A DNA stretch of 64,000 nt from Sulfurovum sp. (GTDB taxonomy: Bacteria > Campylobacterota > Campylobacteria > Campylobacterales > Sulfurovaceae): assembly GCA_030826885.1 (NCBI GenBank), contig JAUUDF010000026.1:1-64000 (forward strand). Reading direction: 5' to 3'. The translations under genes and the position numbers were made by a program. Of the stretch, positions 1 to 9,649 are shown one piece after another (within the stretch, counting starts at the first letter, position 1; every line of letters begins with the position of its first letter). Below the pieces are notes generated by a model. The model worked only from the letters and a program-made list of their open reading frames with translations. It ran no database searches and was not told the DNA's origin.

Positions 1-249
1 AAACAGGTACTTAGAAGAGGAACATCCATAGGTGCAATGGTAAGCGAATCCGAATTTGCACAATCAAAGCCTGATTTTATAAACAACCTCAGCATAGCAT
101 TAAAAGAGGCGAACGAGACTGCTTACTGGATAAATTTGTTAAAAGACACAGACAATATTGATGCAATAATGTTCAAGAGTTTACATAACGATATCAGCGA
201 ACTGCTGAAACTACTTATAGCGATCATCAATAGTTGCAAAAAACAATAA
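1..249 (+). CDS. four-helix bundle protein (23S rRNA IVS-type family), C-terminal part, truncated by window edge
   Basis: Frame is open to position 1 (KQVLRRGTSIGAMVSESEFAQ...), matching the 'LLRSGTSIGANVxEA' family motif; the listed ATG at 37 is internal. Confidence 0.7.
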   Translation, partial: KQVLRRGTSIGAMVSESEFAQSKPDFINNLSIALKEANETAYWINLLKDTDNIDAIMFKSLHNDISELLKLLIAIINSCKKQ

Positions 250-270
250 AAGTATTTCGTAGAAATACAT

Positions 271-309
271 ACCAAAATTATTCATTATTCACTATTAATT
301 ATTCATTCA
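271..309 (-). repeat. Dispersed heptamer/hairpin element, copy 1 (heptamer part; hairpin extends left to about 248)
   Basis: Reverse complement gaataattaatagtgaataatgaataattttggtat + GTATTTC-tac-GAAATAC + ttttattg; matches copies at 2309, 2403 and 9574. Confidence 0.8.
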
Positions 310-323
310 AAGAAGGATAGATA

Positions 324-2297
324 TTGCCGAACTTCACCGTCAACAGCCCCTATGCCCCTTCCGGTGACCAGCCTGAAGCCATTGACAAGCTTTCTGAGTC
401 TATTCTTTCAGGAGAGCGCTACCAGACCCTGCTTGGCGTCACGGGGTCGGGCAAGACCTATACCATGGCGAAGGTGATAGAAAAAACCAAAAAGCCTACC
501 CTCATTATGACGCACAACAAAACCCTTGCCGCGCAGCTTTACAGTGAGTTCAAGGCGTTCTTTCCCAACAACCATGTCGAGTACTTCATCAGCTACTACG
601 ACTACTACCAGCCCGAGGCCTACCTGCCCAGACAGGATCTTTTCATCGAAAAAGACAGTTCCATCAACGAAGAGCTCGAACGCCTGCGCCTGAGTGCGAC
701 CGCTTCACTGCTCAGCCACGACGACGTCATTGTCATCGCTTCCGTTTCCGCCAACTATGGGCTTGGAAGTCCCGAAGAGTACCGCTCCATTGTCCAGAAG
801 CTCACCGTGGGAGAGGAGTACGACCAGAAAGCGCTGCTGCTTCGTCTGGTCGACATGGGCTACAAGAGAAACGACGAATTCTTCGACATCGGAAATTTCC
901 GTGTCAGCGGAGAGGTCATCGACATCTACCCTGCCTACTCGGACGAATTTGCCGTACGGGTTGAGTTCTTCGGTGACGAGATCGAAGATATCTACACCTT
1001 CAACTCACTTACCGGCGAAAAAGAAAAAAGCTTGTCCGAAGTGACCATCTACGCCGCCAACCAGTTCGTCGTAGGCAAAGAAAAACTCGCCAGAGCGATC
1101 AAAAGCATCGAGGAAGAGCTCGATGAACGGCTTGCGTTTTTCCAGCGTGAGGGACGCATGGTCGAGTACAACCGGCTCAAACAGCGCACCGAATTTGACC
1201 TGGAGATGCTCGAGGCAACAGGCATCTGCAAAGGCATCGAGAACTACTCACGACACCTCACCGGCAAAAAACCCGGGGAGACCCCCTACTCGATGATGGA
1301 CTACTTTGAAGTGATGCATGACGACTACCTTGTCATTGTCGATGAATCGCACGTTTCGCTGCCACAGTTTCGCGGGATGTACGCCGGAGACCGAAGCCGC
1401 AAAGAGGTACTTGTGGAACACGGCTTCCGTCTGCCAAGCGCACTGGACAACCGGCCGCTCAAGTTTGACGAATACATCAACAAGGCTCCCCATTACCTTT
1501 TTGTCTCCGCCACCCCCGCACCGCTGGAACTGGAGCTCTCCTCCACCGTTGCCCAGCAGGTTGTCAGACCCACCGGACTGCTTGACCCCGAGATCGAGGT
1601 GATCGACAGTACCTATCAGGTTGAAAACCTGCATGACCGCATGAAACCGGTCATTGAACGGGGTGAGCGGGTACTGGTAACGGTATTGACAAAAAAGATG
1701 GCAGAAGAGTTGACAAGCTACTACAATGATATGGGGCTAAAATGTAAATATATGCACTCGGACCTTGATGCGATCGAGCGTAACCAGATCATCCGGAGTC
1801 TGTGGCTGGGAGAGTTCGACATACTCGTGGGCATCAACCTGCTTCGTGAAGGACTTGACCTGCCAGAAGTAAGCCTCGTTGCCATCCTCGATGCGGACAA
1901 GGAGGGCTTCCTGCGCTCCGAGACCGCACTCATACAAACAGCCGGACGGGCAGCGCGTAATGCCAACGGCCAAGTGCTCATGTATGCCAAAAAAATGACC
2001 GACTCAATGAAAAAGACCATCGAGGTGACACAGGCACGGCGCGAAAAGCAGATCGCCTACAACAAAGAACACGGCATCATTCCCAAAACGACCATCAGGG
2101 AACTTGACACCAATCTTAAACTTGAAGATGCCGGTGAACTTTACAACAAACGTTCCAAACTTGACAAAATGCCAAAGGCAGAACGACAGCAGCTTGTCAA
2201 AGAGCTCAAAGCCAAAATGCTTGCCGCTGCGAAGAATCTGGAGTTTGAAGAGGCAGCAAGGCTGAGAGACGAGATTGCAAAAATCAAGAAGCTATAG
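324..2297 (+). CDS. uvrB: excinuclease ABC subunit UvrB (TTG start)
   Basis: Full-length: [15 protein letters not shown] Walker [12 protein letters not shown]-terminal UVR domain ([14 protein letters not shown]). Confidence 0.98.
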
Positions 2298-2308
2298 CTT
2301 TTTTATCA

Positions 2309-2370
2309 ATGAATAATTAATAGTGAACAGTGAATAATTGTGGTATCCTTTTCTTTTAAAAAAGTTTTTA
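2309..2370 (+). repeat. Dispersed heptamer/hairpin element, copy 2
   Basis: atgaataattaatagtgaacagtgaataattgtggtatccttttcttttaaaaaagttttta, nearly the same layout as copies 1 and 3. Confidence 0.8.
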
Positions 2371-2402
2371 TCTTGAGCAGGAAATAATATATGAAAAAAA
2401 CA

Positions 2403-2474
2403 TCACATTCAATAAAAGCATTGCAGTGCAATGCTTTCCGAAACTATTCACTATTCACTATTCACTATTCACTA
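2403..2474 (-). repeat. Dispersed heptamer/hairpin element, copy 4, with 4.5 perfect ACTATTC units
   Basis: 2443-2474 = (ACTATTC)4 ACTA; reverse complement continues tttcggaaa GCATTGC-act-GCAATGC ttttattg. Confidence 0.8.
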
Positions 2475-2497
2475 AATCAATCATCGGAGAATTTCCG

Positions 2498-4582
2498 ATG
2501 ATTGACTTAAACTCTCCACAGTTCTATTTCAACCGGGAACTCAGCTGGCTGCAGTTCAACTCCCGGGTACTGGCCCAGGCACTGGACAAAAAGCTCCCGC
2601 CTCTCGAACGCCTGAAGTTCCTTGCCATTTACGGTACCAACCTCGATGAATTCTACATGATCCGTGTCGCGGGACTCAAAAGCCTTTTTAAAGCACGCAT
2701 TCAGCAGACAGGGCCCGACAAACTCACACCCGCCGAGCAGCTCAAACAGATACGTACCTATCTGCATGAAGAGCATATTATTCTCGAATCATGCTACACT
2801 TCCATTATTTCGGAACTGCATACACACGGTGTACACATCAAGAACTTCGGTGCGCTCAGCGAAACGGAAAAAAAGGAAGTCAAACGTATTTTCTTTGAGG
2901 AGATCTACCCAGTCATCATTCCCATTGCCATTGATGCGACACACCCCTTCCCGCATCTGAACAATCTCAGTTTCGCACTGGCGATCACCCTGCAGGATGA
3001 ATCCGGGCACATCAAACACGGTCTGATCCGTATTCCGCGCATTCTGCCGCGCTTTGTGCAGATAGACCATACATTCATTCCCATAGAGAGTGTTGTCGAG
3101 CACTTCACGACCGAGCTCTTCCCAGGTTTTACCCCGCTTGCTTCGACACCTTTCAGGGTCACGCGTAATGCCGACATTGAAATTGAAGAGGAAGAGGCCG
3201 ATGACTTCCTTGAAATTCTGCAGGAGGGGCTGCGCTCTCGAAACAAGGGTTCACTCATCCGCCTTGAACTGCACGAAGGAATCGATGCCGATTTGCTCGA
3301 CTTCCTGCTCACCCACCTCAACCTTAACAAAAATGACATCTACCCCTACAAAAGCCTTCCGCTCAACCTTGGTGCACTTTGGCAGATTGTCGGAGACAAA
3401 CGTCTTTCACATCTGGTGCTTCCGACGTTCACCCCAAAAATTCTTCCGCCGTTCGATACGGAAAATGTCTTTGAGGCTATCGAGAAGCAGGATGTCGTCC
3501 TCTACCATCCTTTCGACAGTTTTGAGCCGGTCGTACAGTTCATTAAACAGGCAGCTGCCGATGCAGAGACCATCGCCATTCGTATGACCCTTTACCGCGC
3601 CGGGCAAAAGTCACCCATCGTCAAGGCGCTCATCGATGCGGCACGTGAGGGCAAGCAGGTCACAGTACTTGTGGAGCTTAAAGCACGGTTTGACGAAGAG
3701 AACAACCTACGCTGGGCAAAAGCGCTTGAAGATGCCGGCGCACATGTCGTTTACGGTATTCCCGGGCTCAAGGTTCACGCCAAAATCGCACAGGTCATCA
3801 AACGCAAAGGCCGTAAGCTACAGAGCTACGTACATCTTGCTACAGGAAACTACAATCCTACCACAGCGAAAATCTATACCGACATCTCCTATTTTACCGC
3901 CAAAGAAGTCTTTTCAACCGATGCAACACACTTTTTCCACTTTCTTACAGGTTTCTCCACCTATACGAAACTGAGCACGCTCTATATGTCACCGGTGCAG
4001 ATAAAGCCAAAACTTCTCAAACTCATTGACAAAGAGAGCGCACACGGTAAGAAAGGACATATGATCCTCAAAGCCAATTCTTTGGTCGATCAGGATATCA
4101 TCAAGGCGCTTTACAAAGCATCACAGGCGGGCTGTAAAATCGATCTTATCATACGCGGTATCTGCTGTCTGAAACCGGGGGTGAAGGGGGTCAGTGAGAA
4201 CATTACTGTCTCCTCCATTATCGGGAAGTATCTGGAACATCCGCGTATTTACTGGTTCAAACACCAGAAAGTATGCACCTACATCTCCAGCGCAGACCTC
4301 ATGCCGCGCAACCTTATTCGACGTGTGGAACTGATGACACCGATTCTTGAAGAAAACCTCTCCAAAAAAATCGAGCAGATACTCATGCTGCAGCTTGCAG
4401 ACAATCAGCTAAGATGGGAACTGCAGGAGAGTGGTGATTATGTCAAGGTTCCCGCGCTGGGCAGAACAATCAACAACCATGAGATTCTTGAACAGTATGT
4501 CAATAAAATTTACGATAAAACCAAAAAAGAAACTCCGGACTATGTCAGCCGTCTGGCAAGCCGAATTCTAAAAGAAGGATAG
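2498..4582 (+). CDS. ppk1: polyphosphate kinase 1
   Basis: MIDLNSPQFYFNRELSWLQFNSRVL, KVHAKI and THLATGNYN-type motifs; the ATG at 2498 fits better than the ORF-track start at 2426. Confidence 0.97.
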   Translation: MIDLNSPQFYFNRELSWLQFNSRVLAQALDKKLPPLERLKFLAIYGTNLDEFYMIRVAGLKSLFKARIQQTGPDKLTPAEQLKQIRTYLHEEHIILESCYTSIISELHTHGVHIKNFGALSETEKKEVKRIFFEEIYPVIIPIAIDATHPFPHLNNLSFALAITLQDESGHIKHGLIRIPRILPRFVQIDHTFIPIESVVEHFTTELFPGFTPLASTPFRVTRNADIEIEEEEADDFLEILQEGLRSRNKGSLIRLELHEGIDADLLDFLLTHLNLNKNDIYPYKSLPLNLGALWQIVGDKRLSHLVLPTFTPKILPPFDTENVFEAIEKQDVVLYHPFDSFEPVVQFIKQAAADAETIAIRMTLYRAGQKSPIVKALIDAAREGKQVTVLVELKARFDEENNLRWAKALEDAGAHVVYGIPGLKVHAKIAQVIKRKGRKLQSYVHLATGNYNPTTAKIYTDISYFTAKEVFSTDATHFFHFLTGFSTYTKLSTLYMSPVQIKPKLLKLIDKESAHGKKGHMILKANSLVDQDIIKALYKASQAGCKIDLIIRGICCLKPGVKGVSENITVSSIIGKYLEHPRIYWFKHQKVCTYISSADLMPRNLIRRVELMTPILEENLSKKIEQILMLQLADNQLRWELQESGDYVKVPALGRTINNHEILEQYVNKIYDKTKKETPDYVSRLASRILKEG

Positions 4583-4584
4583 CA

Positions 4585-5121
4585 ATGCTGCTAAAATTTA
4601 AAGAGTGGACCCCAAAACTGGGAAAAAATGCATGGGTCGCCGAAGGCGCCTCCGTCATCGGACGTACCGAAATGGGCGAAGACAGTGCCGTATGGTTTGG
4701 CTGTGTGGTACGCGGCGATGTACACTACATCAAAATAGGTGACCGTACCAACATTCAGGATTTGAGTATGATCCACGTCACCCACCACAAGCGTGAAGAC
4801 ATGAGTGACGGCAACCCGACGATCATCGGCAACGACGTTACTGTCGGACACCGTGTCATGCTGCACGGATGTACTATTGAAGATGCCTGCCTTATTGGTA
4901 TGAGTGCAACCATCCTTGACGGTGCGGTCATTGGCAAAGAGAGCATTGTAGGTGCCGGCAGTCTGGTGACCAAAAACAAAAAATTCCCACCCCGCTCTCT
5001 TATTATGGGCAGTCCCGCCAAAGTCGTTCGGGAACTGACTGATGAAGAGGTAGCGGAGCTATACGCTTCGGCAAAGCGCTATGTAGCGTTTAAAAACGAG
5101 TATCATAACACAATTATATAA
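4585..5121 (+). CDS. gamma-class carbonic anhydrase family protein (left-handed beta-helix)
   Basis: Hexapeptide repeats with AVWFGCVVRGDVHYIKIGDRTNIQDLSMIHVTHH...VGHRVMLHGC. Confidence 0.93.
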   Translation: MLLKFKEWTPKLGKNAWVAEGASVIGRTEMGEDSAVWFGCVVRGDVHYIKIGDRTNIQDLSMIHVTHHKREDMSDGNPTIIGNDVTVGHRVMLHGCTIEDACLIGMSATILDGAVIGKESIVGAGSLVTKNKKFPPRSLIMGSPAKVVRELTDEEVAELYASAKRYVAFKNEYHNTII

Positions 5122-5158
5122 AGTATAAATCAGGTTTACATCAAATAACATCATAGAA

Positions 5159-5205
5159 GGTGCGTGCACCCCAAAGGCATTTCCTTCGGGCATTACGCAC
5201 CCTGG
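5159..5205 (-). repeat. AGGGTGCGT-type palindromic repeat, copy A
   Basis: Reverse complement CCAGGGTGCGTAATGCCCGAAGGAAATGCCTTTGGGGTGCACGCACC; outer arms GGTGCGT/ACGCACC. Confidence 0.65.
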
Positions 5206-5215
5206 AAGGTAAAAC

Positions 5216-5896
5216 ATGCAACAGACCGTTATAAAAAGTTTTAAAGATATTTTCTCCGCTACCGTACTGCTCTTTACCATCAAGGTAGCGCTGATATCCG
5301 CATTCATTACTGCAGTTGCTGTCTGGCTTTTTGGCGGTGTCTTGACAGGGTTTGTCAAAGCCTATCTAGGGTGGATACCCTGGGAGTGGCTCCAGACGAC
5401 CGGTGCTTCCGTAGCCACCATCGCCATTGCCTACATGCTCTTTATTCTCACCATTGCCGTGGTAACCTCTTTTCTCATTGAACCGCTGCTTGTCAAACTC
5501 GCTGCCAAACACTACCCACAGGTAAAAGTCGTCGGCAGCCCAAGCATTACCGCCTCTTTGCTTGTCAGCCTTAAAGCGGCACTGCTCTTTTTTGTGATTT
5601 TTCTCTTTACCTTCCCCTTGATGTTTGTACCTCTTTTGGGAGCGGTCTGGATGCTCTGGCTCTGGTCAATTCTCATCAAAGAACCCACGTTCTACGATGT
5701 TTCGTCTCTTTTCATTGCAGACAAAGAAGAACGCAGAAAAAAGAAAAAAGGCACGACCCTGCTCGCAATGATTGCCGCCGGCTTCAACTACATTCCGGTA
5801 CTCAACATCTTCTCTGCGGTCTTTGCGCAGATTCTTTTTATGCATCATCTGTTAGCAGATAAGCGAATAGCGAGTAGCGAACTTTATAACGTCTAA
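5216..5896 (+). CDS. EI24/CysZ-like integral membrane protein
   Basis: About 226 aa, several hydrophobic segments, EI24-like features (LIEPLLVKLAAKHYPQVK). Confidence 0.7.
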   Translation: MQQTVIKSFKDIFSATVLLFTIKVALISAFITAVAVWLFGGVLTGFVKAYLGWIPWEWLQTTGASVATIAIAYMLFILTIAVVTSFLIEPLLVKLAAKHYPQVKVVGSPSITASLLVSLKAALLFFVIFLFTFPLMFVPLLGAVWMLWLWSILIKEPTFYDVSSLFIADKEERRKKKKGTTLLAMIAAGFNYIPVLNIFSAVFAQILFMHHLLADKRIASSELYNV

Positions 5897-5949
5897 CCTT
5901 CAGGGAATCTTAGCAATAAAAAGCAACAGCTGGTTTTTGTTTTTAACTT

Positions 5950-5975
5950 GGTCGATGCGTGATGACGCACCCTAC
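5950..5975 (-). repeat. AGGGTGCGT-type palindromic repeat, copy B
   Basis: Reverse complement GTAGGGTGCGTCATCACGCATCGACC; shares AGGGTGCGT and hairpin layout with copy A. Confidence 0.6.
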
Positions 5976-6778
5976 TGCTCTCGGATTGATGCTCCATGTT
6001 CATTCTTTATCCGTCTCGTCTTCTTGCTCGAAGTCGCAAACTGCAGTAGATCATCGGTTGTCCTGACATACGGCGGCAGGGTTTCAAAGCTCTTTAGCAT
6101 CACCTTGGACGCACACAGCGCATCGGAGTAGGCACGGTGGTGGTTGGTCTCTTCCATCCCCAGGAACTCTATGAGGTAGGCAAGTCCGTAGCGTTCGCTT
6201 TCAAAGGTACGTCTGGCGAGGTCAATCGTGCAGAGTGCAGGGTTGCCGATACCGCCAAGTCCAAAACGCTCAAACGAGGCATCGAGAAATGTGTAGTCAA
6301 ACGCCGCATTATGGGCAACAAATACGGCATCTTGCATAAAGTTACGCAAACCCGTAAGGGCTTCGCGTCTGCTTGGTGCACCAATGAGATCTTCGGGTTC
6401 TATGCCGGTGATCTTGGTAATATATTCGGGCAGGAAAGCACACTCGACAAAGGTCTCGTAACGATCAACCACTTTCCCCTCCTCTACCATCACCGCACCG
6501 ATTTCGATGACCTGGGAAGTTCCCGGCTTGCTCCCGTTGGTCTCAATGTCGACCACACAGTATTTCTGTTTTTGGTAGGGTGTAAAAAATGTTTTCAGTC
6601 TGTAGTATCCGTCCGCTTCCTCTATGGGGTACCCGGATGCCTGCAGCAGAATGAAAATGGTATCGCTATCCTCAAGCAGCGTCGTGTGTTTCATCACGAC
6701 CGCATCATACTGCGCTTGTGTCAGAATGCCTTCATGTTTGCGGAAGGTTCTGGTCAGCTCCTCAAAGACTTTTCGCAT
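5972..6778 (-). CDS. 3'-5' exonuclease, DnaQ/PolC epsilon-like
   Basis: DEDDh motifs: VVDIETNGSKPGTSQVIEIGAVMV ... AHNAAFDYTFL ... HHRAYSDA. Confidence 0.92.
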   Translation of the reverse strand: MRKVFEELTRTFRKHEGILTQAQYDAVVMKHTTLLEDSDTIFILLQASGYPIEEADGYYRLKTFFTPYQKQKYCVVDIETNGSKPGTSQVIEIGAVMVEEGKVVDRYETFVECAFLPEYITKITGIEPEDLIGAPSRREALTGLRNFMQDAVFVAHNAAFDYTFLDASFERFGLGGIGNPALCTIDLARRTFESERYGLAYLIEFLGMEETNHHRAYSDALCASKVMLKSFETLPPYVRTTDDLLQFATSSKKTRRIKNEHGASIREQ

Positions 6779-7352
6779 TGGCGATGAAGCGCTCCACTTT
6801 TTTGGGATCTTTCTTCCCTTTGACCGACTCTACACCGGAGCTGACATCTACCCCGTAAAATCCGTACCCTTTCAGTTCGGCAAGGTTGTCCGCGTTCAGT
6901 CCTCCGGCAAGAATAATCTTGGAACAGTCAACGCCTTCAAACCATTCGAGATTCAGTCGTTTGCCACTGCCGCCATAGGCATCGCAGTAGGCATCCACCA
7001 GTCGGTAGCGATCGGAAAAGCGGTGCACATCCTCAGCACAACGCGCCCTGACAACCGGCAGTGTTTTGGGTGCGACAGCATCGAGCGACTCCTCATCGAC
7101 ATCAAAATGTATCTGTGCAAGTGAAATATCGGTATAGCGGCAGACAGTGTCAATGGTTTCTACCCCCTCGTTGACAAACAGCCCTACACGTTCTACGAAC
7201 GGCGGCAACTGATCGATAATATGCCTCGCATTTTTAGGAGTGATATAGCGTGGAGACTCTTTGTAAAAGACAAACCCCAGTGCATCTGCTCCGCAGGAGA
7301 CCGCATGCAGTGCATCCCGAAGATTGGTAATACCACAAATCTTTACACGCAT
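6762..7352 (-). CDS. trpF: phosphoribosylanthranilate isomerase
   Basis: MRVKICGITNLRDALHAVSCGADALGFVF ... GGLNADNLAE ... GVDVSSGVES. Confidence 0.97.
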   Translation of the reverse strand: MRVKICGITNLRDALHAVSCGADALGFVFYKESPRYITPKNARHIIDQLPPFVERVGLFVNEGVETIDTVCRYTDISLAQIHFDVDEESLDAVAPKTLPVVRARCAEDVHRFSDRYRLVDAYCDAYGGSGKRLNLEWFEGVDCSKIILAGGLNADNLAELKGYGFYGVDVSSGVESVKGKKDPKKVERFIANAKSL

Positions 7353-7361
7353 AAAAGCTCC

Positions 7362-8003
7362 TTACTTCAAAGAGGCAATCGCCTCTTTGACCCCTTTTGG
7401 ATGTTTGTAGACAAATGACCCGGCAACGACAACATCGACGCCTGCGGCTTCGAGTTCCCTGACATTGACATCGTTGACACCGCCGTCAACCTCAATAAGA
7501 CAGTCGGGATTGCGCTTTTCGATCATCTCTTTAAGGCGCTTTGCCTTTTCGATGACAGAAGGGATAAACTGCTGGCCACCGAAACCGGGGTTGACAGACA
7601 TCAACAGCACCATGTCAAGGTCTTCAAGCAGATATTCCAGTGCTTCGGGACGACTGTGGGGGTTAAGCACGATGGAGGGGCGGATACCCAGTGACCTGAT
7701 CTTCTGAACCAGTCTGTGCTGGTGCTTCTCTTCTTCATAATGAAACGAGATAAATTCAGGCTTTAGCGGTGCGAACAGATTGACAAAAAAAGTGTTGTTC
7801 TCCACCATCAGGTGAATGTCAAGCGGTTTGGTCGCCGCTTTCGCAACGGCTTCGACCACAACAGGGCCGATCGTAAGGTTTGGCACAAAGTGACCGTCCA
7901 TCACATCGACATGCACAAGATCACACCCGCCGTCGCAGATAGCTTCGACATCACGGGCAAGGTGCCCAAAGTCGGCAGAGAGAATACTGGGAGCAACTAA
8001 CAT
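7362..8003 (-). CDS. rpe: ribulose-phosphate 3-epimerase
   Basis: MLVAPSILSADFGHL...DVMDGHFVPNLTIGP...MSVNPGFGGQQFIP...DGGVN; start placed at the ATG complementary to 8001-8003. Confidence 0.97.
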   Translation of the reverse strand: MLVAPSILSADFGHLARDVEAICDGGCDLVHVDVMDGHFVPNLTIGPVVVEAVAKAATKPLDIHLMVENNTFFVNLFAPLKPEFISFHYEEEKHQHRLVQKIRSLGIRPSIVLNPHSRPEALEYLLEDLDMVLLMSVNPGFGGQQFIPSVIEKAKRLKEMIEKRNPDCLIEVDGGVNDVNVRELEAAGVDVVVAGSFVYKHPKGVKEAIASLK

Positions 8004-8125
8004 AATAAAGATACCTACTGTATTTAAGATGGGCGTATTATAACACAGCCCAGGTAAGAGGTGCTTCCCTCCTGCTGTTTTACCCACGCCATACCACCTT
8101 AAGCAAAATTTATGATTTGTTTGTA

Positions 8126-8131
8126 TATAAT
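8126..8131 (+). promoter_or_regulatory. candidate -10 element (TATAAT) upstream of rpmB
   Basis: ttgtttgtaTATAATtcg in the intergenic region 65 bp before rpmB. Confidence 0.4.
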
Positions 8132-8195
8132 TCGCCACAAAATATTCGGGGCAGCATACCGACGTGTGCCGTCTACATTCACTAAAGGTACGATC

Positions 8196-8405
8196 ATGGC
8201 AAGAAAATGTTCAGTAAGCGGTAAAGGCCCGCTGGTAGGAAACAATGTTTCTCACGCAAACAACAAGACAAAAAGAAGACAGCTTCCAAACCTAAGATCT
8301 GTAAAGATCACACTTGAAGACGGAACAACAAAGCGTATTAAAGTTGCAGCTTCTACGCTCAGGACAATGAAGAAAAAAGCTGCACAAGCTGCTGCAGCTA
8401 ACTAA
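8196..8405 (+). CDS. rpmB: 50S ribosomal protein L28
   Basis: [38 protein letters not shown]. Confidence 0.97.
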
Positions 8406-8412
8406 TTTCTCA

Positions 8413-8438
8413 GATAGGAGAGGGTATACTCTCTTATC
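8413..8438 (+). other. hairpin between rpmB and channel gene, containing the Shine-Dalgarno
   Basis: GATAGGAGAG-GGTATA-CTCTCTTATC: 10-bp stem (one G.U) ending at the base before the ATG at 8439. Confidence 0.6.
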
Positions 8439-9569
8439 ATGACCCCTTTAGCAAAACTCAAAAAATTTCTCGGCTGGAGAACAGCATCCAAACCCCACAT
8501 TACACTCAATGATGAGTACTATTCACACTTAGCACCATTCAGGCTGCCGCTCATACTGACCGTACTGATTATGCTTGTAGGTACCATTGGTTATATGGTC
8601 ATCGACAACTTCACCCTTATGAATGCCATCTATCAGACAGGAATCACCTTCACTACCGTCGGTTACGGGGAGATACAGCCCATCTCGGATGCCGGACGCA
8701 TTTTTACCATCACGCTGATTATTTTTGGGTTTGTCATCTTCTCCATAGCCGTGGGGATCATTGCCGAAGTGGTCAAAAAAGGGGAATTTCAAAAAATCGC
8801 AAAGGAGCGAAAGATGCTTTACGAGATCGCCAGACTCAAACACCACTTTGTTGTCTGCTACCATAATGAATTTACCATTCAGGTGACCAAACAGCTCAGA
8901 GAAAACCACATACCCTTCGTTGTTGTCGATCCGCGTGAAGATATGGAAGAGATTGCAAAAAAATACAAATATCCCTATTATGTTTCGGCAGAACCGCATA
9001 CGGAGGAAGGTATTCTCAAATCACACCTCTCTTCGGCAAAAGGAGTCATTACCCTGGCAAGAACCGTAGCCGACAACATTGCAGTCATCGCTTCGGCAAG
9101 ACTTTACGAAAGCGAAATCGGACGTAAACGAAAATACCTTGTGATTGCCAATGCACAAAGCTATGAGGATGAGACCAAACTGCTCAAACTCGGAGCTGAC
9201 AAAGTTGTTACCGCAACCAAACTGATGGCACAGCGTATCAATGCCATGGCGGCACGTCCCGATATGGAGAACCTCCTGCAGGAGTTCCTCTACAAAAAAG
9301 ACACCCCGCTGGATATGGAAGAGGCGAAAGTATCAAAAACATCATGGCTGACACTCAAACAGATCAAAGCCGCACGTTTTAGAGATATCGCCAATGTCAC
9401 CATCATCGGCATACGCCAGAAAGACGGTAAGTTCATACCTATGCCAAAAGGCGATACCATTATCATGCACGAATCGAAACTGCTGCTCATCGGTACCGGA
9501 GAGGGAATCAGAAAGGCGAAAAAGATCATTCGCAAAAAAGAGAAACCTGAAGAGCTGAAATACATTTAA
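8439..9569 (+). CDS. potassium channel family protein with RCK/TrkA-N and TrkA-C domains
   Basis: Pore TFTTVGYGEIQP; RCK FVVCYHNEFTIQVTKQLRE; C-terminal TrkA-C. Confidence 0.93.
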   Translation: MTPLAKLKKFLGWRTASKPHITLNDEYYSHLAPFRLPLILTVLIMLVGTIGYMVIDNFTLMNAIYQTGITFTTVGYGEIQPISDAGRIFTITLIIFGFVIFSIAVGIIAEVVKKGEFQKIAKERKMLYEIARLKHHFVVCYHNEFTIQVTKQLRENHIPFVVVDPREDMEEIAKKYKYPYYVSAEPHTEEGILKSHLSSAKGVITLARTVADNIAVIASARLYESEIGRKRKYLVIANAQSYEDETKLLKLGADKVVTATKLMAQRINAMAARPDMENLLQEFLYKKDTPLDMEEAKVSKTSWLTLKQIKAARFRDIANVTIIGIRQKDGKFIPMPKGDTIIMHESKLLLIGTGEGIRKAKKIIRKKEKPEELKYI

Positions 9570-9573
9570 CTCC

Positions 9574-9634
9574 GTGAATAATTAATAGTGAATAGTGAAT
9601 AATTTTGGTATGCTTTTCTTTCGAAAAGCTTTTA
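9574..9634 (+). repeat. Dispersed heptamer/hairpin element, copy 3
   Basis: gtgaataattaatagtgaatagtgaataattttggtat GCTTTTC-tttc-GAAAAGC tttta. Confidence 0.8.
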
Positions 9635-9649
9635 CCCAAGGATACACTT

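Follow-up and report, generated by a model that had tools for sequence, protein, structure and literature searches.

The stretch of Sulfurovum DNA considered here (the window, 64,000 nucleotides long, from a genome of 1.65 Mb that we call G000) carries four copies of an intergenic repeat, in which tandem heptamers of the AGTGAAT type are followed by a short hairpin, and at its very beginning the end of a gene of the PF05635 family; the relationship between the two is the subject of this report. The four copies and their stems, originally noticed in an examination of the letters alone (the sequence-only reading), were all confirmed at their places, and the distances given there from three of them to the start codons of uvrB (TTG 324), ppk1 (ATG 2498) and argJ (ATG 9650) were correct. 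The features are as follows:

1-249, plus strand: C-terminal 82 codons of a PF05635/TIGR02436 four-helix-bundle gene (Pfam 1.8e-16, TIGR02436 1.2e-18)
244-307, minus strand: copy 1, with heptamers at 277-307 (a period-7 array according to TRF), AATTTTGGTAT at 269-279 and a hairpin at 252-268 with the stem GTATTTC/GAAATAC (cmsearch E 2.3e-11)
2308-2373, plus strand: copy 2, with heptamers at 2308-2335 and a hairpin at 2348-2364 with the stem CTTTTCT/AAAAAAG, one mismatch (cmsearch E 2.2e-5)
2391-2501, plus strand: mini open reading frame (mini-ORF) MKKTSHSIKALQCNAFRNYSLFTIHYSLNQSSENFR, running between and through the arms formed by copies 2 and 4, with a TGA stop that overlaps the ATG of ppk1 (ATGA 2498-2501)
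2410-2474, minus strand: copy 4, with a hairpin at 2418-2434 (stem GCATTGC/GCAATGC) and heptamers at 2443-2474 (TRF, 4.6 copies, 100%) (cmsearch E 1.8e-11)
2474-2508, plus strand: start-codon hairpin AAATCAATCATCGGA-GAATT-TCCGATGATTGACTT, whose 3' arm is the start of ppk1 and whose 5' arm joins the heptamers
9573-9637, plus strand: copy 3, a single arm directly past the stop of the upstream gene and ahead of argJ, with heptamers at 9573-9600 and a hairpin at 9612-9629 (stem GCTTTTC/GAAAAGC) (cmsearch E 1.5e-8)

These copies are far beyond chance: with one mismatch allowed, 1.6 occurrences of AGTGAATAATT are expected and 9 are present (0/100 shuffles), and for ATAGTGAATAGTGAAT, with up to three mismatches, the corresponding numbers are 0.7 and 12. 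In the window, a covariance model derived from ten copies detected these four and no fifth (E 1.8e-11 to 2e-5), and an Rfam search of the same 64 kb returned two tRNAs and nothing else. Three features had been overlooked, namely the pairing of copies 2 and 4, the longer hairpin on the start of ppk1, and the end of the PF05635 gene, the 5' part of which falls beyond the start of the contig. Since copy 1 directly follows this gene end, it represents the downstream arm of an element truncated where the contig begins.

A repeat family with a covarying stem

The covariance model, seeded with ten dispersed copies and applied with a unit threshold of E<=0.01, detects 33 units in G000 and from 0 to at least 60 per genome across Sulfurovum, in a patchy distribution (the counts for the richest genomes are lower bounds), and none among 39 genomes from 30 other genera of the same order; the family of heptamer-and-hairpin repeats is Sulfurovum-specific. 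The stem of the ten copies is 95.7% paired and has undergone 12 two-sided changes, and its covariation is higher than in all slid controls and in any of 500 shuffles. Orthologous copies reveal the same tendency, with compensatory changes for example at the trpF site (GCTTTTC..GAAAAGC versus GTTTTTC..GAAAAAC) and in the second arm at ppk1 (the B arm, GCATTGC versus GCACTGC). Thus, the suggestion that a stem covaries between constant flanks in a dispersed family was borne out both in the ten copies and between orthologues. Of the proposal that this reflects either selection on structure or hairpin-dependent copying, the maintenance of structure stands, and either of the two may account for it.

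Convergent pairs, some with a PF05635 gene inside

Many units are paired, with arms that face each other, heptamers outside and hairpins inside, mostly at 85-164 bp from core to core. Copies 2 and 4 are one such pair, lacking an ORF and located between uvrB and ppk1; when the pair is folded as RNA, its two heptamer arrays form a single long stem (z -8.3). All four copies counted in the window are real, but two of them are convergent arms of one element, and, while single arms do exist, the insertion unit is usually an inverted pair and not a lone copy.

Comparison of orthologous sites, which the sequence-only reading had proposed, revealed patchy occupancy among relatives, with filled and empty sites at several loci (uvrB-ppk1, argJ, dnaB). 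The uvrB-ppk1 region carries both arms in G000, G002, G032, G036 and G101 and a single arm in G041 as well as in G009, G050 and G056, while genomes with neither arm (G003, G027, G044 and others) keep a native promoter and a short leader; the arms must therefore have been gained or lost separately. At the argJ site of copy 3, orthologous arms are present in G036 and G016, and none in G050 and G056. The argJ sites of G101 (L200 10870-11042) and G002 exhibit tandem re-insertions or duplications of one arm, each with a hairpin of the TGACAC-TGC-GTGTCA or TCACGC-nnn-GCGTGA type ahead of the heptamers. At the trpF site, G056 and G032 have a different dispersed repeat, of the GTAGGGTGCGTAATCACGCACC type, at the spot where their relatives have the heptamer element.

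Four pairs of about 455 bp (L140, L152, L203 and L043) enclose an ORF of 116-120 aa, which belongs to PF05635 (23S_rRNA_IVP; E 8e-25 to 4e-27 in the three searched at full length), matches also TIGR02436 "four helix bundle protein", and encodes a relative of PDB 2rld (E 1.5e-30). Among 61 Sulfurovum genomes the number of PF05635 genes correlates with the number of units (rho 0.69, p 1e-9), again with rho 0.69 within the 33 genomes at least 90% complete. Y1 transposases, including RAYT (REP-associated tyrosine transposase), and reverse transcriptases, which were also considered as mobilisers, do not track the copy number (Y1_Tnp, rho 0.02; RVT_1, rho 0.03). Short pairs without an ORF share their inverted ends with the PF05635 composites, as expected of miniature inverted-repeat transposable elements (MITEs), and are best read as derivatives of the PF05635-bearing element.

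These numbers bear on the notion that the repeats are of the REP (repetitive extragenic palindrome) or REPIN type, mobilised by RAYT or another Y1 (IS200/IS605) transposase on single-stranded hairpins. Like REPs and REPINs, the family consists of dispersed intergenic palindromes that occur as singlets and inverted pairs, its hairpin has a short conserved foot, and many of the genomes encode Y1 proteins of RAYT size. However, Y1_Tnp is present in 19 of 24 unit-rich and in 18 of 23 unit-free genomes, and the vicinity of 30 Y1 genes yielded just three weak matches (E 0.085 or worse); neither a GTAG-like conserved 5' tetranucleotide at the palindrome nor a linkage to RAYT was found, and the family has instead heptamer arrays and an enclosed gene that is PF05635. 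We regard such a history as very improbable.

Inverted period-7 arrays mark PF05635 genes in many phyla

Most Sulfurovum PF05635 genes are preceded by forward heptamers and followed by reverse-complement ones, even where the heptamer is a different one and the GGTAT hairpin is absent. To quantify this, the upstream flank was compared with the downstream flank read in reverse complement, and their local similarity was scored: scores of at least 30 were reached by 56/75 Sulfurovum loci versus 0/375 random positions, and by 19/28 loci from other phyla versus 0/140. Because the genomes of other phyla had been found via AGTGAAT arrays, we took two further samples unselected for heptamers (score cut-off >=28), one from other genera of Campylobacterota (21/26 loci versus 0/130 random positions) and one of plasmid genes from Nostoc, Treponema, Bernardetia, Monoglobus and others (12/15 versus 0/75). 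Over the samples inverted flanks thus accompany 68-81% of PF05635 loci and never random positions. When periods from 4 to 11 were tested in the flanks of the Sulfurovum loci and of the first set from other phyla, 7 alone was enriched. The heptamer itself is a property of the locus: in Sulfurovum it is the same on both sides (at least 6 of 7 positions) in 40/46 loci, compared to 21% with loci swapped, and in other phyla in 6/11, compared to 2%.

The same architecture extends to ribosomal RNA. Genome G151 has three identical 23S rRNA genes (Rfam LSU_rRNA_bacteria), each with an intervening sequence (IVS) that carries a PF05635 ORF:

G151 C1 584757: 23S rRNA IVS, L505
G151 C1 869210: 23S rRNA IVS, L506
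G151 C1 1474092: 23S rRNA IVS, L504

In these IVSs, arrays of GAATACA/GATTACA and their complement surround the ORF and fold into one stem. In Coxiella, three tandem GACAGAT heptamers were reported just before the S23 ORF of the 23S IVS (PMC4990558); together with the G151 arrays, this indicates that rRNA IVSs and the intergenic elements share one architecture. Our literature search, outside of which fell most subscription journals and bioRxiv, found nothing beyond this passage that connects PF05635 genes with heptamer arrays. The idea of a free-standing family, distinct from heptamer repeats, found no support: the fused hairpin is a lineage-specific decoration within the termini of PF05635 elements, which are marked by inverted heptamer arrays in many phyla.

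Some PF05635 genes with heptamer arrays reside amid defence genes (L498 and L499 on Nostoc and Anabaena plasmids, L492, L500 and L501), the genes on their two sides being cas2 and cas1, hsdS and hsdR, a helicase gene and an N-6 DNA methylase gene, and DISARM and BREX genes; defence operons may be favoured targets. Array length is variable, the usual number of heptamers being four, with about 15 copies beside the plasmid genes of L490 and L497 and some 53 AGTGAAT-like copies in L218, from a Bacteroidetes metagenome-assembled genome.

AGTGAAT arrays without the gene are likewise found in many phyla, at 118 stretches or more, and where two of them lie within 200 bp, 40 pairs are convergent and none divergent, the same geometry as in the Sulfurovum pairs. 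PF05635 is present somewhere in 35 of 38 genomes with such arrays and in 18 of 150 genomes of Campylobacterota, an excess that is only indicative, as the samples differ in phylum and genome size.

It might be argued that the heptamer arrays arise by slippage on the spot and the hairpins by quasi-palindrome correction, with no mobile element involved. STRR heptanucleotide repeats of heterocystous cyanobacteria are, like the arrays here, short tandem heptamers, and four-helix-bundle genes on Nostoc plasmids are flanked by period-7 arrays (TAATTCG, GGTCGGA). The uniformity of arrays within a locus together with their difference between loci, the spread of AGTGAAT arrays over very many phyla, and the good match of hairpin arms everywhere would all agree with slippage. 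On the other hand, tandem heptamers are not the sole shared feature, since the GGTAT-hairpin core and convergent pairs are shared as well; copying is required if dozens of unrelated loci are to have a single consensus, AGTTTTGGTAT-hairpin-TTTTATTG; and neither the complete bias towards convergent pairs nor heptamers that match 0.4 kb apart across an ORF are accounted for. We consider this scenario quite improbable.

Junction hairpins and the target sequence

The hairpin over the ppk1 start is one of a class: in Sulfurovum, perfect stems of at least 8 bp end at the array in 37 of 139 units, compared to 1/139 in shifted and 0/139 in shuffled controls. At well-compared sites the far arm is native coding sequence and the near arm is an inverted copy of it. 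Thus G041 has neither element nor hairpin at the dnaB site, where G009 has GAAGTCGAGAAG-ATGG-CTTCTCGACTTC-AGAGTGAATAG and G016 has GAATTTTG-CCAAG-CAAAATTC-AGAGTGAAG, and the position of the hairpin varies between the species (G009, G016, G000). In seven genomes the ppk1 start-codon hairpin is 95.2% paired, with a covariation reached by 0/500 shuffles, and its non-coding near arm tracks synonymous codon differences of the start region (codons 1-5). Native Rho-independent terminators were rejected as a general explanation of the outer hairpins, as these are often over start codons; not every outer hairpin was made by insertion, though, since the right-hand palindrome at trpF is found also in the element-free G000 and G020.

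The covariation implies that the structure of start-codon hairpins is maintained, either by selection, with coupled translation opening the hairpin, or by templated correction or snap-back copying of the target. In the purely mutational version, one arm serves as the template from which the other is corrected by template switching, and covariation would then not imply selection on RNA. It is compatible with an insertion element and competes solely over the structure. In its favour are the junction hairpins, which repeat local coding sequence in inverted form, occupy different positions at dnaB in different species and agree with the synonymous codons of each genome, but it leaves dispersal and the period-7 arrays unexplained, and positions over start codons suggest use. 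We hold it to be a serious possibility, albeit one with the odds somewhat against it.

Translation across the element

Among 45 combinations of pair and strand with a long ORF beginning just downstream (some sites are orthologous, so that not all combinations are independent), 29 contain a mini-ORF, 24-44 codons long, which extends across the second arm and terminates between -4 and +17 of the next start, most commonly at +4, +7 or +10; 26 of these 29 have a Shine-Dalgarno (SD)-like stretch, and most start with ATG. In six further combinations the mini-ORF is fused in frame to the downstream gene, to which it adds an element-encoded N-terminal extension:

L034 16998-17113: in-frame fusion
L037 6162-6284: in-frame fusion
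L085, L096, L093 and L193: in-frame fusions

Three copies of a 7-nt repeat are read in all three frames, and AGTGAAT has TAG and TGA in each frame in the forward direction and no stops in its complement. In Sulfurovum, 19 of 23 distinct sense heptamers upstream contain stops, versus 6 of 28 downstream (background 31%).

Given such arrangements, the repeats could be a family of cis-regulatory RNAs (attenuators or translational switches) under selection, whose dispersal is the duplication of a useful leader. The coupling of start-codon hairpins and mini-ORFs at many genes, the fact that the non-coding arm covaries with codons of ppk1, and the TTTTGGTATGCT motif, which resembles a -10 box and stands where native ppk1 promoters have TTTTGCTATAAT, are in keeping with this. 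However, same-site presence is patchy among relatives, the target genes are unrelated, PF05635 ORFs lie inside, and a like architecture is found in rRNA genes, and regulation may be an outcome of dispersal instead of its cause. This explanation seems to us unlikely.

A probable insertion element of the IVS type

The anatomy of the element, the pairing of its arms, its gene content, its architecture across phyla and its patchy occupancy are direct observations. With PF05635/TIGR02436 between the ends, inverted ends that can pair, and period-7 arrays by the ORF, we consider it probable that the copies in the window stem from an IVS-type insertion element that carries PF05635, as its termini and as MITE-like derivatives without the ORF. 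Its full form would run from the end of the upstream gene through a forward array (about 4 x 7 nt), the PF05635 ORF, a hairpin and a reverse-complement array of the same heptamer to the start of the downstream gene, the Sulfurovum form adding AGTTTTGGTAT and a small hairpin between the forward array and the ORF. The two arrays would pair in RNA as one long stem, like those of rRNA IVSs. The forward array would halt upstream translation in every frame and the reverse array, open in every frame, would let ribosomes loaded at the internal SD-ATG unfold the start-codon hairpin and begin translation anew at the downstream gene; insertion into an operon therefore appears to be tolerated via translational coupling. 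Gene-less pairs may be products of internal deletion that were aided in their spread by a factor acting in trans, perhaps the PF05635 pentamer, and the target-copied fold-back arms at both junctions hint at primed, snap-back synthesis.

Several observations weigh against this interpretation. The correlation of PF05635 genes with units is partly built in, because some units contain the gene, and takes no account of phylogeny; moreover, G050, G025 and G051 have 11-39 units yet no PF05635, and two of them are 92% and 100% complete. No movement of the element was observed, and inspection by eye of the dnaB and cluster-37 sites for target-site duplications gave merely suggestive cases, none of them established. 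Outside Sulfurovum and its phylum, target-derived junction hairpins are not enriched, the only stem of at least 8 bp in the set labelled non-Campylobacterota being that of L292, itself from Sulfurovum; the stop/open asymmetry is not seen in other phyla either (7/13 versus 7/16). Finally, no PF05635-like ORF was found at 118 AGTGAAT-array loci (785 kb), in a search that passed its positive control, and such orphan arrays far outnumber PF05635 genes, so that arrays may have other origins too.

The closest known systems are the 23S rRNA IVSs of Coxiella and Leptospira (PMC4990558), which resemble the element in the ORF of about 118 aa from PF05635 within some 0.45 kb, the inverted ends that form one stem and the heptamers that immediately precede the ORF (GACAGAT in Coxiella, the GAATACA type in G151). 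In contrast to them, the elements of the window lie between protein genes and not in an rRNA helix from which they would be excised, most are ORF-less with dozens of copies per genome, and the GGTAT hairpins and target-derived junction hairpins belong to them. TAACTGA heptamer repeats of Beggiatoaceae, cyanobacteria and Bacteroidetes (MacGregor 2015, PMC4679880) are likewise intergenic arrays near starts with forward stops in all frames and an open reverse direction; the heptamer is different, and neither a PF05635 gene nor convergent array pairs are mentioned in the abstract and the passages searched.

More broadly, and with a little under an even chance of being right, we suggest that PF05635 genes across bacteria are the mark of one class of very small mobile elements with locus-specific inverted heptamer arrays, which invade operons and rRNA genes; 23S IVSs would be the rRNA residents and many orphan heptamer repeats the ORF-less relics. 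Their movement would involve no recognisable transposase and might proceed through primed fold-back or repeat-adding synthesis, in the course of which target-complementary junction hairpins are written as well. Three puzzles meet here: the role of "four helix bundle protein" genes, the origin of rRNA IVSs and the nature of intergenic heptamer repeats. If the elements are indeed one class, many orphan genes and repeats could be annotated, and transposon-like spread in the absence of a known transposase would become testable. The arrangement also suggests a route to harmless insertion into operons, by stops in all frames on entering, open frames on leaving, and coupling to the next gene.

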